This document shows, one piece after another, positions 25,751-28,759 of a stretch of 64,000 nucleotides of DNA. Numbering within the stretch: position 1 is the first letter of the stretch; each line of letters begins with the position of its first letter. Below the pieces are notes generated by a model. It was not told the origin of the DNA, did not search any database, and saw only the letters and a program-made list of their open reading frames with translations. Source of the stretch: Lysobacter alkalisoli (GTDB lineage: Bacteria; Pseudomonadota; Gammaproteobacteria; Xanthomonadales; Xanthomonadaceae); the NCBI RefSeq assembly GCF_006547045.1, contig NZ_CP041242.1, forward strand, positions 2,118,001 through 2,182,000, written 5' to 3'. A program made the position numbers and the translations under genes.

Positions 25751-25849
25751 GTCGCCTCGGCAGGGACAACACGCCGGCCGGCCCCCTCCGGCCGGCGCAC
25801 GTCGAAGGGCGGCGATGCGATACTGGCCCGCCCATCGTGACCCGTGCCG

Positions 25850-26314
25850 ATGCAGCGCTCCATTCCATTCGCCAGCCAGCTCTTCGCCTGCCTGTTCTTC
25901 GCCAGCCTGCTACTGACCCTCTCCGCCTGCCGCGACCCCGGCCCGCCGCCGGGCGGCACCGTCGCCGAACTGCAGCGTATCGACGTGCACGAAGGCGATG
26001 GCGCCCTCGCCCGCCCCGGCATGGAAGTGACCGTTCACTACACCGGCTGGAACTACGACGAGCGCCAGCCGGACCGGCGCGGCGAGAAGTTCGACAGCTC
26101 GGTCGACCGCGGCGAGCCTTTCACCTTCCTGCTTGGTGCCGGCCGGGTGATCCGCGGCTGGGACGAAGGCGTGGCCGGCATGCGCGTGGGCGGCAAGCGC
26201 GAACTGCATATCCCGGCTGAACTCGGCTATGGCAGCCGTGGTGCCGGCGGCGTGATCCCGCCCAACGGCTCGCTGGTATTCGAGGTCGAACTGCTCGACG
26301 TGCGCGAGCGCTGA
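25850..26314 (+). CDS. FKBP-type peptidyl-prolyl isomerase lipoprotein
   Basis: A 154-residue protein. The leader QLFACLFFASLLLTLSAC ends in a lipobox (LSAC), so it is probably anchored in a membrane. The FKBP domain follows: VTVHYTGW, KFDSSVDRGEPFTFLLGAGRVIRGWDEGVAGM, and LGYGSRGAGGVIPPNGSLVFEVELL, with the usual hydrophobic active-site residues. It would catalyse prolyl isomerisation and assist folding of exported proteins. GTG at 25844 is an alternative start two codons upstream. A hairpin element and htpG follow, giving a folding-related neighbourhood. Confidence 0.88.
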   Translation: MQRSIPFASQLFACLFFASLLLTLSACRDPGPPPGGTVAELQRIDVHEGDGALARPGMEVTVHYTGWNYDERQPDRRGEKFDSSVDRGEPFTFLLGAGRVIRGWDEGVAGMRVGGKRELHIPAELGYGSRGAGGVIPPNGSLVFEVELLDVRER

Positions 26315-26370: not shown

Positions 26371-26478
26371 GACGCGCCCGGGCATGGCTCTGCAGGACCT
26401 TCCGCGACATGGATGTTGCGGATGAGCCCCCATGGACGGGTTTACGGCGTGTCCTGCAGAGCCATGCCCGGGCGCGTC
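26371..26478. repeat. Long-stem hairpin element, copy 1 (28-bp stem, 52-nt loop)
   Basis: Arms 26371-26398 and 26451-26478 are perfect 28-base reverse complements. The 52-base loop carries a small inner hairpin (CCGCGACAT/ATGTTGCGG) and the words CATGGATG and CATGGACG. Copy 2 at 28652-28759 has the same dimensions; 42 of 52 loop bases match, and nine of 28 stem positions differ with full compensation. It lies between the FKBP gene and the htpG promoter, so it may end FKBP transcripts. Confidence 0.85.
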
Positions 26479-26537
26479 CTCATGCACGCACTCAAAGCAG
26501 ATCCCATGCCCGGAATGACGGGCACGGAACATTGAGG

Positions 26538-26565
26538 CTTGAAAGCTCGCCGCACGGCCCCATCC
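26538..26565 (+). promoter_or_regulatory. Sigma-32 (RpoH) type promoter of htpG
   Basis: CTTGAAA (26538-26544), 13 bases, then CCCCATCC (26558-26565) matches the heat-shock consensus closely. The expected transcript start near 26572 gives a 5' leader of about 33 bases before the htpG ATG. Confidence 0.85.
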
Positions 26566-26604
26566 AGCGCCCTGTCCACGCACCACCGCGCACAGGAGCC
26601 CGCC

Positions 26605-28497
26605 ATGAGCGTCGAAACCCACAAGGAAACCCTCGGCTTCCAGACCGAGGTCAAGCAGCTGCTGCAGCTGATGATCCACTCGCTGTATTCGAACCAGGAG
26701 ATCTTCCTGCGCGAGCTGGTCTCCAACGCCTCCGACGCCATCGACAACCTGCGCTTCCAGGCCATCGCCCGGCCCGAACTGCTCGAAGGCCAGGGCGAGC
26801 CGCGCATCCGCATCTCCACCGACAAGGATGCCGGCACCGTCACCATCGAGGACAACGGCATCGGCATGAACCGCGACGAGGTCGTCGCCAACCTCGGCAC
26901 CATCGCCCGTTCCGGCACCGCCGAACTGCTGCGCGGCATGACCGGCGAGCAGAAGAAGGACTCACAGCTGATCGGCCAGTTCGGCGTCGGCTTCTACTCC
27001 TCGTTCATCGTCGCCGACAAGGTCGAGGTGTTCACCCGGCGCGCCGGCGCGCCGGCCGACGAGGGCGTGCACTGGAGCTCGAACGGCGAAGGCGAGTTCG
27101 ACATCGCCACCCTCGACAAGCCCGAGCCTGGCACCCGCATCGTCCTGCACCTGAAGGAAGACACCCGCGAGTTCGCCGATGACTGGCGCCTGCGCGGCAT
27201 CATCAAGCGCTACGCCGACCACATCGGCGCCGCGATCGAGATGCCGAAGCAGGACGACGACGGCAAGGCCGGCGACGAGTGGGAGAGCGTCAACGACGCC
27301 AGCGCGCTGTGGACCCGGCCGCGCAACGACGTGACCGACGAGGAATACCGCAGCTTCTACCAGCACACCGCCCACGACTTCGAGGACCCGCTGGCGTGGA
27401 GTCACAACAAGGTCGAGGGCAACCTGGAGTACACCTCGCTGCTGTACGTGCCGGGCCGCGCCGGCTTCGACCTTTACCACCGCGACGCCAGCCACGGCCT
27501 CAAGCTGTACGTGCAGCGCGTCTTCATCACCGACCGCGCCGACCAGTTCCTGCCCCACTACCTGCGCTTCATCCGCGGCGTGGTGGATTCCAGCGACCTG
27601 TCGCTGAACGTCTCGCGCGAGATCCTGCAGAACAGCCCGGTCATCGGCTCGATGAAGACCGCATTGACCAAGCGCGTGCTCGACATGCTCGGCAAGCTGG
27701 CCAATGACGACGCGGAAAAGTACGCGAAGTTCTGGGACCAGTTCGGCGAGGTGCTGAAGGAAGGCCCGGCCGAGGACTTCGGCAACACCGAGAAGATCGC
27801 CGCCCTGTTCCGCTTCGCCTCTACCTTTGACGACAGCGGCAAACCGTCGGTGGCGCTGGCTGACTATGTCGGACGGATGAAGGACGGCCAGGACAAGATC
27901 TACTACCTGATCGGCGAAAGCCACACCCAGCTGCAGGGCAGCCCGCACCTGGAGGTATTCCGCAAGAAGGGCGTGGAGGTGCTGTTGCTCAGCGACCGCA
28001 TCGACGAGTGGATGATGGGCTACCTGCGCGAATTCGACAGCAAGTCCTTCGTCGACATCAGCCGTGGCGACCTCGACCTCGGCAGCCTGGATTCCAGCGA
28101 GGACAAGGCCGCGCTGGAGGAAGCTGCCAAGGCCAGCGAAGGCCTGGTTGGACGGATCAAGACCGCACTCGGCGACCAGGTTTCGGATGTGCGCGTATCC
28201 CATCGCCTGACCGAATCCCCGGCGGTGCTCGCCGCCGGCGAACACGACGTTGGTGCGCAGATGCGGCAGATACTCGAAGCCACCGGCCAGTCCATACCCG
28301 AGTCAAAGCCGGTGTTCGAATTCAACCCCGGCCACCCGCTGATCGAACGGCTCGACCGTGAAAGCGACGGCGAACGCTTCAGCGCCCTCAGCCACATCCT
28401 GTTCGAGCAGGCCTCGCTGGCCGCCGGCCACGGGTTGAAAGACCCCGCCGGCTACGTCGGCCGCCTCAACAAGCTGCTGATCGAACTGGCGGGCTGA
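26605..28497 (+). CDS. htpG: Molecular chaperone HtpG (Hsp90)
   Basis: A 630-residue ATP-dependent chaperone, full length. GGAG about 8 bases upstream supports the ATG. The N-terminal GHKL ATPase domain has [17 protein letters not shown] and [20 protein letters not shown]. The middle domain has the catalytic-loop Arg region ([20 protein letters not shown]). The C-terminal dimerisation domain ends NKLLIELAG. It remodels partly folded clients in the cytosol with DnaK. A sigma-32-type promoter lies just upstream. Copies of the 28-bp-stem element lie on both sides of the gene. Confidence 0.97.
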
Positions 28498-28506
28498 CCG
28501 TGATCT

Positions 28507-28535
28507 CCCGGGTGCGCTTCGCTTACCCGGGCTAC
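28507..28535. repeat. REP-like single arm after htpG
   Basis: This 29-base sequence matches the right arm of the 12469-12551 element with one difference (CTTCG for CTGCG). It folds on itself through CCCGGGT and ACCCGGG. It starts 9 bases after the htpG stop. Confidence 0.7.
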
Positions 28536-28651
28536 GATCCTGGCGGGCTGATCTCTACCCCACATCTTCCGGATGCGAGTGTGGCTACGGCCACACCCGC
28601 AGCATGGAGTGGTCAAGGAGATTTCCACCATGAGCGCCGGCCAACCATCCA

Positions 28652-28759
28652 GAAGCCGGCTGCCATGCCTTTGCGGGACCGTCCGCAACATGGATGTTGC
28701 GGAAGAGCCTACATGGACGTATTCACGGCGCGTCCCGCAAAGGCATGGCAGCCGGCTTC
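28652..28759. repeat. Long-stem hairpin element, copy 2 (28-bp stem, 52-nt loop)
   Basis: Arms 28652-28679 and 28732-28759 are perfect 28-base complements around a 52-base loop (28680-28731). The loop holds a perfect inner 9-bp hairpin CCGCAACAT/ATGTTGCGG, then AAGAGCCTACATGGACGT and ACGGCG. It has the same orientation as copy 1. It sits between htpG and the convergent araC-type gene, a typical bidirectional terminator position. Confidence 0.85.

Follow-up and report, generated by a model that had tools for sequence, protein, structure and literature searches.

A dispersed hairpin element with paired GGA loops in Lysobacter alkalisoli and other Gammaproteobacteria

In a 64,000-nucleotide (nt) stretch of the Lysobacter alkalisoli genome (contig NZ_CP041242.1, positions 2,118,001 to 2,182,000; hereafter the window), two long palindromes of identical layout lie on either side of htpG. 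Their stems differ in sequence and still pair fully, which raises the question of what keeps the fold and whether the element belongs to htpG, acts as a structured RNA, or moves on its own account. Analysis of the two copies, of the whole genome and of related genomes uncovered a dispersed family of hairpins, present at some sites and missing from the same sites in relatives, whose pairing is selected on one strand and whose two apical loops almost invariably carry GGA. The best available reading, which we consider about evenly poised between right and wrong, is a mobile, transcribed hairpin that binds the regulator CsrA/RsmA.

Compensated pairing and the strand that folds

A repeat search recovered both window copies as 28-nt arms that are 100% complementary, lie 52 nt apart and share one orientation, as the first-pass annotation of the window had described. 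The stems of the two copies differ at 9 of 28 positions, and all nine differences are compensated, again as described, while the loops are identical at 43 of 52 positions rather than the 42 counted originally. Relative to dinucleotide shuffles, the folds of copies 1 and 2 reach z = -9.03 and -10.43, and none of 200 shuffles equals either.

The element is not confined to this locus. The loop pattern, with up to three mismatches, matches the genome 50 times compared with no match for the reversed pattern; a few of the 50 are chance matches in coding sequence, such as one in L046 (L and G numbers are our own identifiers for loci and genomes). A covariance model, R1, built from an alignment of 42 genome copies, identifies 61 full copies at ≥90 bits. 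R1 also matches two copies with an altered second half (47.9 and 41.0 bits) and one sequence at 27 bits; these three, together with opposite-strand shadows, were left out of the 61. In the altered copies (L014 and L048; C1:129371 and 3078760), the 3′ half is displaced by an unrelated repeat-like insert and the second loop lacks GGA.

Pairing holds in 99.3% of the 1,748 cells of the 42-copy alignment, and 30 of its 42 pairs show changes on both sides, whereas structures slid along the alignment pair at 33.7–41.7% and none of 500 shuffles reaches any of five covariation measures. The helix of the first inner hairpin (helix 2 of the alignment) covaries as well. Eight of the 42 copies have a 50-nt loop, in which one C and one G are lost from opposite sides of the same short helix. 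Local duplication was rejected on the strength of the 50 pattern matches and the 61 R1 copies across the genome, so the covariance-model search that the first-pass annotation had proposed as its test, with 61 copies found and nearly all aligned cells paired, came out against a local artefact.

Compensated arms could also be produced by DNA template switching, in which one arm is copied onto the other with no selection on a folded strand. Such copying would fit the perfect arms, of many different sequences, found in 31 of the 61 copies, and the additional outer arms by which some copies lengthen the palindrome, but it leaves aside the inner hairpins, which covary too. The residual mismatches bear on the question directly. 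Because a G-U mismatch on one strand is an A-C mismatch on the other, double-stranded DNA similarity or arm copying alone would yield about equal numbers of each. Instead, mismatches in the 61 copies comprise 38 of G-U type and 3 of A-C type (p 1e-8), distributed 17:3 in plus copies and 21:0 in minus copies. The ratio is 26:1 in sense copies and 11:1 in copies antisense to the upstream gene; an indel-bearing copy at 559795 was dropped from this last comparison and kept in the 38:3 count.

The same excess was found in other genomes, where 167 pattern-found copies (outside G000, loops of 50–53 nt) contain 211 G-U and 21 A-C mismatches and have inner 22 pairs that are 91.7% Watson-Crick. These copies come from 118 loci, several per genome, and are therefore not independent; removal of identical copies leaves 165, with a ratio of 207:21. 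Slid-arm controls on the other-genome copies gave G-U:A-C ratios of 314:377, 384:393, 440:239 and 492:259. Since G-U far exceeds A-C, the fold that matters is that of the CAUGGAUG strand, and pairing is under selection there. Template switching, which predicts near equality, is disfavoured, and we regard it as very improbable. The first-pass annotation had named selection or arm copying as the keeper of the fold; selection is upheld by the covariation and the G-U excess, while arm copying alone, which predicts no such excess, is not, and the element behaves as a strand-specific structure. More generally, a comparison of G-U with A-C mismatch counts is an easy means of identifying the strand of a palindromic repeat on which selection for folding acts.

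Several copies vary on this plan. In a subfamily (L009, L011, L013, L032, L033, L035), a second, outer arm pair extends the palindrome; it is largely complementary within a copy and differs in sequence between copies. In L020 (minus strand, 1880-2160; C1:776464-776577), the core and arms stand in reverse orientation to the lineage-specific outer flanks known from other copies, as if the head had been flipped by recombination between its own arms. Rfam microRNA and viral-intron matches to the palindromes were taken as chance matches of long hairpins.

Genomic setting, spread and mobility

None of the 61 full copies overlaps a called gene by more than 20 nt (genes were called with a simple script based on codon usage in six genes of the window). 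The upstream gene lies on the same strand for 40 of the 61 (p 0.02), 14 copies lie between convergent genes and 7 between divergent ones. This setting would suit a 3′ untranslated stabiliser or terminator, a long hairpin that merely blocks exonucleases or read-through, as proposed for the Yersinia repeat YPAL discussed below. A conserved head of about 52 nt, bearing two GGA loops on unrelated stems, is however more than a plain stabiliser requires, and 21 of the 61 copies are antisense to the upstream gene. Inspection by eye of the examined flanks found no U-run after the stem, and no terminator scan was made. We judge a stabiliser or terminator, taken as the whole explanation, to be unlikely.

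In the window (Table 1), copy 1 starts 56 nt past the stop of a putative FKBP-type gene and copy 2 starts 154 nt past the htpG stop, each on the strand of that gene, so that each copy sits behind a gene. The first-pass annotation had suggested a transcription insulator as one option, but comparison with congeners does not bear out a link specific to htpG, such as insulation of its promoter. Copy 1 is found at the same place, with identical arms, in G141 and is absent in G119, G019 and G093, and copy 2 is absent in all three readable congeners (G141, G019, G093; the G119 contig ends inside the interval after htpG and was not counted). A putative heat-shock (sigma-32)-type htpG promoter (26538..26563, plus strand) is kept in the aligned congeners without copy 1. 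Because the copies are missing at the same sites in congeners, the bracketing of htpG is incidental; insulation and htpG-specific regulation were rejected, the copies being separate, lineage-specific insertions. A second, different palindromic repeat, of the CCCGGGTGCGCT...ACCCGGG type, lies at 28507-28531 of the window and in the flanks of L014, L028 and L041, and recurs intergenically near the GGA-loop elements.

Table 1 Features of the two window copies and the adjacent genes
Feature	Position in window	Strand	Basis
Copy 1, 5′ arm, 28 nt	26371..26398	+	Repeat search, 100% complementary
Copy 1, inner hairpin 1, 8-bp helix, hexaloop AUGGAU at 26409-26414	26401..26422	+	Sequence, fold
Copy 1, inner hairpin 2, hexaloop AUGGAC at 26432-26437	26426..26448	+	Sequence; helices 3 and 4 of covariation alignment
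Copy 1, 3′ arm, 28 nt	26451..26478	+	Repeat search
Copy 2, 5′ arm, 28 nt	28652..28679	+	Repeat search
Copy 2, inner hairpin 1, hexaloop AUGGAU at 28690-28695	28682..28703	+	Sequence, fold, covariation alignment
Copy 2, inner hairpin 2, hexaloop AUGGAC at 28713-28718	28707..28729	+	Sequence, covariation alignment
Copy 2, 3′ arm, 28 nt	28732..28759	+	Repeat search
Putative FKBP-type peptidyl-prolyl isomerase gene, named by eye	25844..26314	+	Open reading frame list
htpG, named by the first-pass annotation and by eye	26605..28497	+	Open reading frame list

Presence differs between relatives elsewhere too, as for a mobile element, in keeping with the mobile option of the first-pass annotation. None of four congeners has the 1074427 copy at the corresponding place, and neither of two has the one at 3211306. 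Among five other genomes of the genus, one has at least 25 matches, G141 has 11 copies and a weak one, and three have none, with no match anywhere in G119; copy numbers in these multi-genome searches are rough, a limited number of candidates having been scored per genome. Target duplications were sought at five sites, one of them too diverged to interpret, and the congener junctions are too diverged to read. In total, R1 matches 39 of 149 genomes of the family and 67 of 369 of the class Gammaproteobacteria, which bears out the mention in the first-pass annotation of similar loops in other members of the class. Carriers among the matches listed include Stenotrophomonas, Xanthomonas, Microbulbifer, Marinobacter, Cellvibrio, Halopseudomonas, Rheinheimera and Alteromonas. 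All 31 matches in a phylum search fall in the same class, for a set of 398 genomes in which the number from outside the class is not stated.

The window core has no match in 72,556 plasmid and 50,697 phage records, and plasmid or phage cargo was rejected for the window element. The exact core pattern does occur in one viral contig (L245), and a relative of the L245 element was found in 5 of 5,426 E. coli genomes, with four of the five places on plasmids; the same query gave no match in the phage records. Plasmid carriage thus exists for the wider family.

Of 55 pairs of neighbouring elements less than 2 kb apart in the loci examined, 52 are oppositely oriented (41 -+ and 11 +-; two of the 55 lie in G000), and some elements form alternating arrays, such as L226:2485-3359 with six strictly alternating elements separated by 52, 34, 52, 34 and 54 nt. 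Doublets and arrays of this kind, in an intergenic, multi-copy repeat that is patchy between the species of the family, resemble those of repetitive extragenic palindromes (REPs), REPINs and BIMEs, and suggest a REP/BIME-type mobile palindrome whose folded single strand is the substrate of a single-stranded DNA transposase, with the loops as recognition marks and any RNA role a by-product. G-T is also the milder mismatch in DNA, which counts in favour of this account. The present elements differ, however, in their much longer stem, their conserved branched head and the lack of a Y1 association. Y1_Tnp, the REP transposase family, is matched in 29 of 39 element genomes compared with 72 of 110 others (p 0.33), where absence, here and for CsrA below, means that a genome is not among the listed genomes with a match. 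No Y1_Tnp match is listed for G141 or for G082, which has at least 20 copies, whereas G019 has five Y1_Tnp matches and no element match; with no association to the element, a Y1_Tnp REP transposase was rejected as the mobiliser. REPs in one survey have stems of 5–13 bp and loops of 2–20 nt (PMC3733652), and the REP-type short hairpin tagged GTAG/CGTC was not matched, a 28-bp stem and a 52-nt branched loop being found instead; CGTC occurs in some element heads, but inside the structure. In addition, an ANGGA loop with a free second base would fit an RNA-binding protein better. A REP/BIME-type palindrome therefore seems to us rather unlikely.

The flanks and assemblies of some carriers are unusual. 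The 20 copies examined in G082 are nearly identical and have long lineage-specific flanks with tandem repeats; in L256-L275 these lie upstream, and degenerate tandem copies of the element's 3′ half often lie downstream. At least 14 draft contigs (11 in G044 and 3 in G082) begin within 10 bases of an element core, which suggests that the hairpin stops sequencing or assembly.

Homology to YPAL and resemblance to TwoAYGGAY and CsrB-type RNAs

Mobile palindromes of this kind are already known. YPAL is described as a mobile Yersinia repeat of about 167–168 bp with target duplications of 3–26 bp, which accompanies upstream genes and might influence the stability of transcripts (PMC2229807). It is reported to be abundant in all Yersinia genomes of one survey except Y. 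ruckeri (PMC2847712), and the core with its two GGA loops is also present in the 168-nt sequence printed for RU-2 (PMC2759123). Compared by eye, the L245 element is nearly identical to the RU-2/YPAL repeat; R1 matches this YPAL copy at 48.6 bits (E 6.9e-10) with the inner hairpins paired, and an E. coli relative (L313) at E 4.9e-8. Both YPAL/RU-2 and the present elements are intergenic, multi-copy palindromes with a two-GGA-hairpin core that are present or absent between relatives, although their stems and flanks are unrelated and YPAL is about 167 bp long. Judged from sequence comparison, the present core is homologous to that of YPAL/RU-2, as a distant homologue with different stems.

The Rfam family TwoAYGGAY (RF01731) likewise has two adjacent AYGGAY-loop hairpins on an enclosing stem, on the same strand. 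Copy 1 aligns over the whole RF01731 model at 36.7 bits, compared with a gathering score of 43, while copy 2 gives no match up to E 5; five other loci gave two matches (35.5 and 28.4 bits), and none of 20 further loci reaches the gathering score. The elements thus formally miss the cut-off of the family. They share its two adjacent hairpins, with a second loop base that is not always Y (T, G, A, C). A 2014 study proposed that TwoAYGGAY binds CsrA (PMC4333381). The Rfam clan CL00106 includes both TwoAYGGAY and CsrB. CsrB/RsmZ-type small RNAs (sRNAs) display GGA loops on hairpins, as the present elements do, and concentrate many sites at a single locus, whereas the elements offer two sites per copy in tens of dispersed copies.

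The Yersinia sRNA Ysr224 (RF02770), reported to be temperature-responsive (PMC9029176), matches L245 at 133.9 bits where the YPAL copy lies, though on the other strand. Weak, sub-threshold Ysr224 matches also occur on the present elements, again on the opposite strand for the window copies. The literature search found no publication that treats YPAL together with CsrA, and no link between YPAL and TwoAYGGAY appeared in the literature consulted, although one may have been published. The statement in the first-pass annotation that no function had been assigned thus holds in part: the enterobacterial relative YPAL and the family TwoAYGGAY are published, the latter with a proposal of CsrA binding.

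Paired GGA loops and the CsrA/RsmA reading

Both apical loops contain GGA in all 61 full genome copies. The loop of hairpin 1 is AUGGAU in 53, AGGAU in 5, and AUGGAC, AAGGAU and AGGAC in one each; that of hairpin 2 is A-N-GGA-Y, where N is U in 42, G in 11, A in 6 and C in 2. Elsewhere in the family and class genomes, GGA occupies both loops in 71 of 73 non-shadow R1 matches (95 rows in all: the 71 best, which were used, 22 shadows on the opposite strand, and 2 weak matches in which one hairpin alone has GGA), and the bases around GGA vary among these 71. The two motifs are separated by 15 nt, which places 20 nt between the GGAs, in 204 of 224 pattern-found copies; as that pattern demands GGA in both loops, this set was not used for the claim of GGA conservation.

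ANGGA, presented in hairpin loops at two sites and with a free base before GGA, is by its sequence the CsrA/RsmA pattern and has the apparent layout of a double binding site, with the two sites at bridging distance. Hairpin 1 has A before its closing C (ACAUGGA) in 39 of 42 aligned copies. Selection by systematic evolution of ligands by exponential enrichment (SELEX) gave the CsrA consensus RUACARGGAUGU, in which ACA and GGA are invariant and a hairpin loop presents the GGA (PMC4347634). The genome of the window encodes CsrA (one match). Among class genomes of ≥90% completeness, a CsrA match is found in 55 of 56 with and 225 of 258 without the element (p 0.015). The clan that TwoAYGGAY shares with CsrB and the same-strand upstream gene of 40 of the 61 copies also speak for this reading. 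Because the family is wide, the selection strand-specific and the GGA loops paired, CsrA/RsmA binding is the best candidate mechanism.

On this CsrA/RsmA reading, the copies would be a small non-autonomous mobile element that lands between genes. RNA from the CAUGGAUG strand would form the 28-bp stem topped by two short ANGGA-hexaloop hairpins, usually with 20 nt between the GGAs, and would either remain within the 3′ region of a transcript or be released from it. Each element would then hold a CsrA/RsmA dimer, and many copies together, acting as decoys or docking sites scattered over the genome, might sequester the protein or tether it to the host transcript, while the long stem may protect the transcript 3′ end. 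We infer transcription in this species, CsrA binding and an effect on neighbouring genes.

Several observations weigh against such a role. The mismatch bias marks the folding strand and does not separate RNA from single-stranded DNA. Antisense copies have the same bias, so read-through from a neighbour could not be the sole source of transcript; no conserved promoter was noticed by eye, and no promoter scan was made. The expressed relative, Ysr224, is modelled on the opposite strand. In hairpin 2, the base before the closing C is C rather than the SELEX A in 30 of 42 copies. Loop conservation may be overstated, as R1 was built from GGA-bearing copies and the loci are top-scoring, and two R1 matches elsewhere have a single GGA hairpin. 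The association with CsrA is compatible with dependence on it but weak, because CsrA is nearly universal in the class: over all class genomes, a match is found in 62 of 67 element-bearing compared with 251 of 302 element-free ones (p 0.06). Five of the 67 element-bearing genomes lack a CsrA match, one of them 98% complete (G342). The two single-hairpin relatives (L052:782-870 and L109:1234-1325, minus strand) are shorter, with one GGA hairpin on top of a long stem, and are perhaps deletion derivatives.

What is new here is the breadth of the family, the selection on one strand and the occurrence of GGA loops in pairs. The findings connect three things that bear separate names, namely a mobile repeat of Yersinia, an orphan Rfam family and the annotation of an expressed sRNA in Yersinia, with one multi-copy element that spans many gammaproteobacterial families, and for which a testable common partner is proposed. 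We tentatively suggest, as a possibility that is somewhat more doubtful than CsrA/RsmA binding itself, that YPAL, TwoAYGGAY and the present elements form one gammaproteobacterial lineage of mobile CsrA/RsmA RNA decoys, whose jumping between genes and expansion to tens of copies repeatedly change the dose and targets of this global regulator. If this suggestion is true, the 61 copies in L. alkalisoli would amount to 122 CsrA/RsmA sites, and the element would be a selfish one, sustained by a post-transcriptional network or tolerated on account of it. The number of copies of a mobile repeat would then be a hidden setting of the Csr/Rsm network, and close relatives with 0 and 61 copies would allow its effect on that network to be measured.
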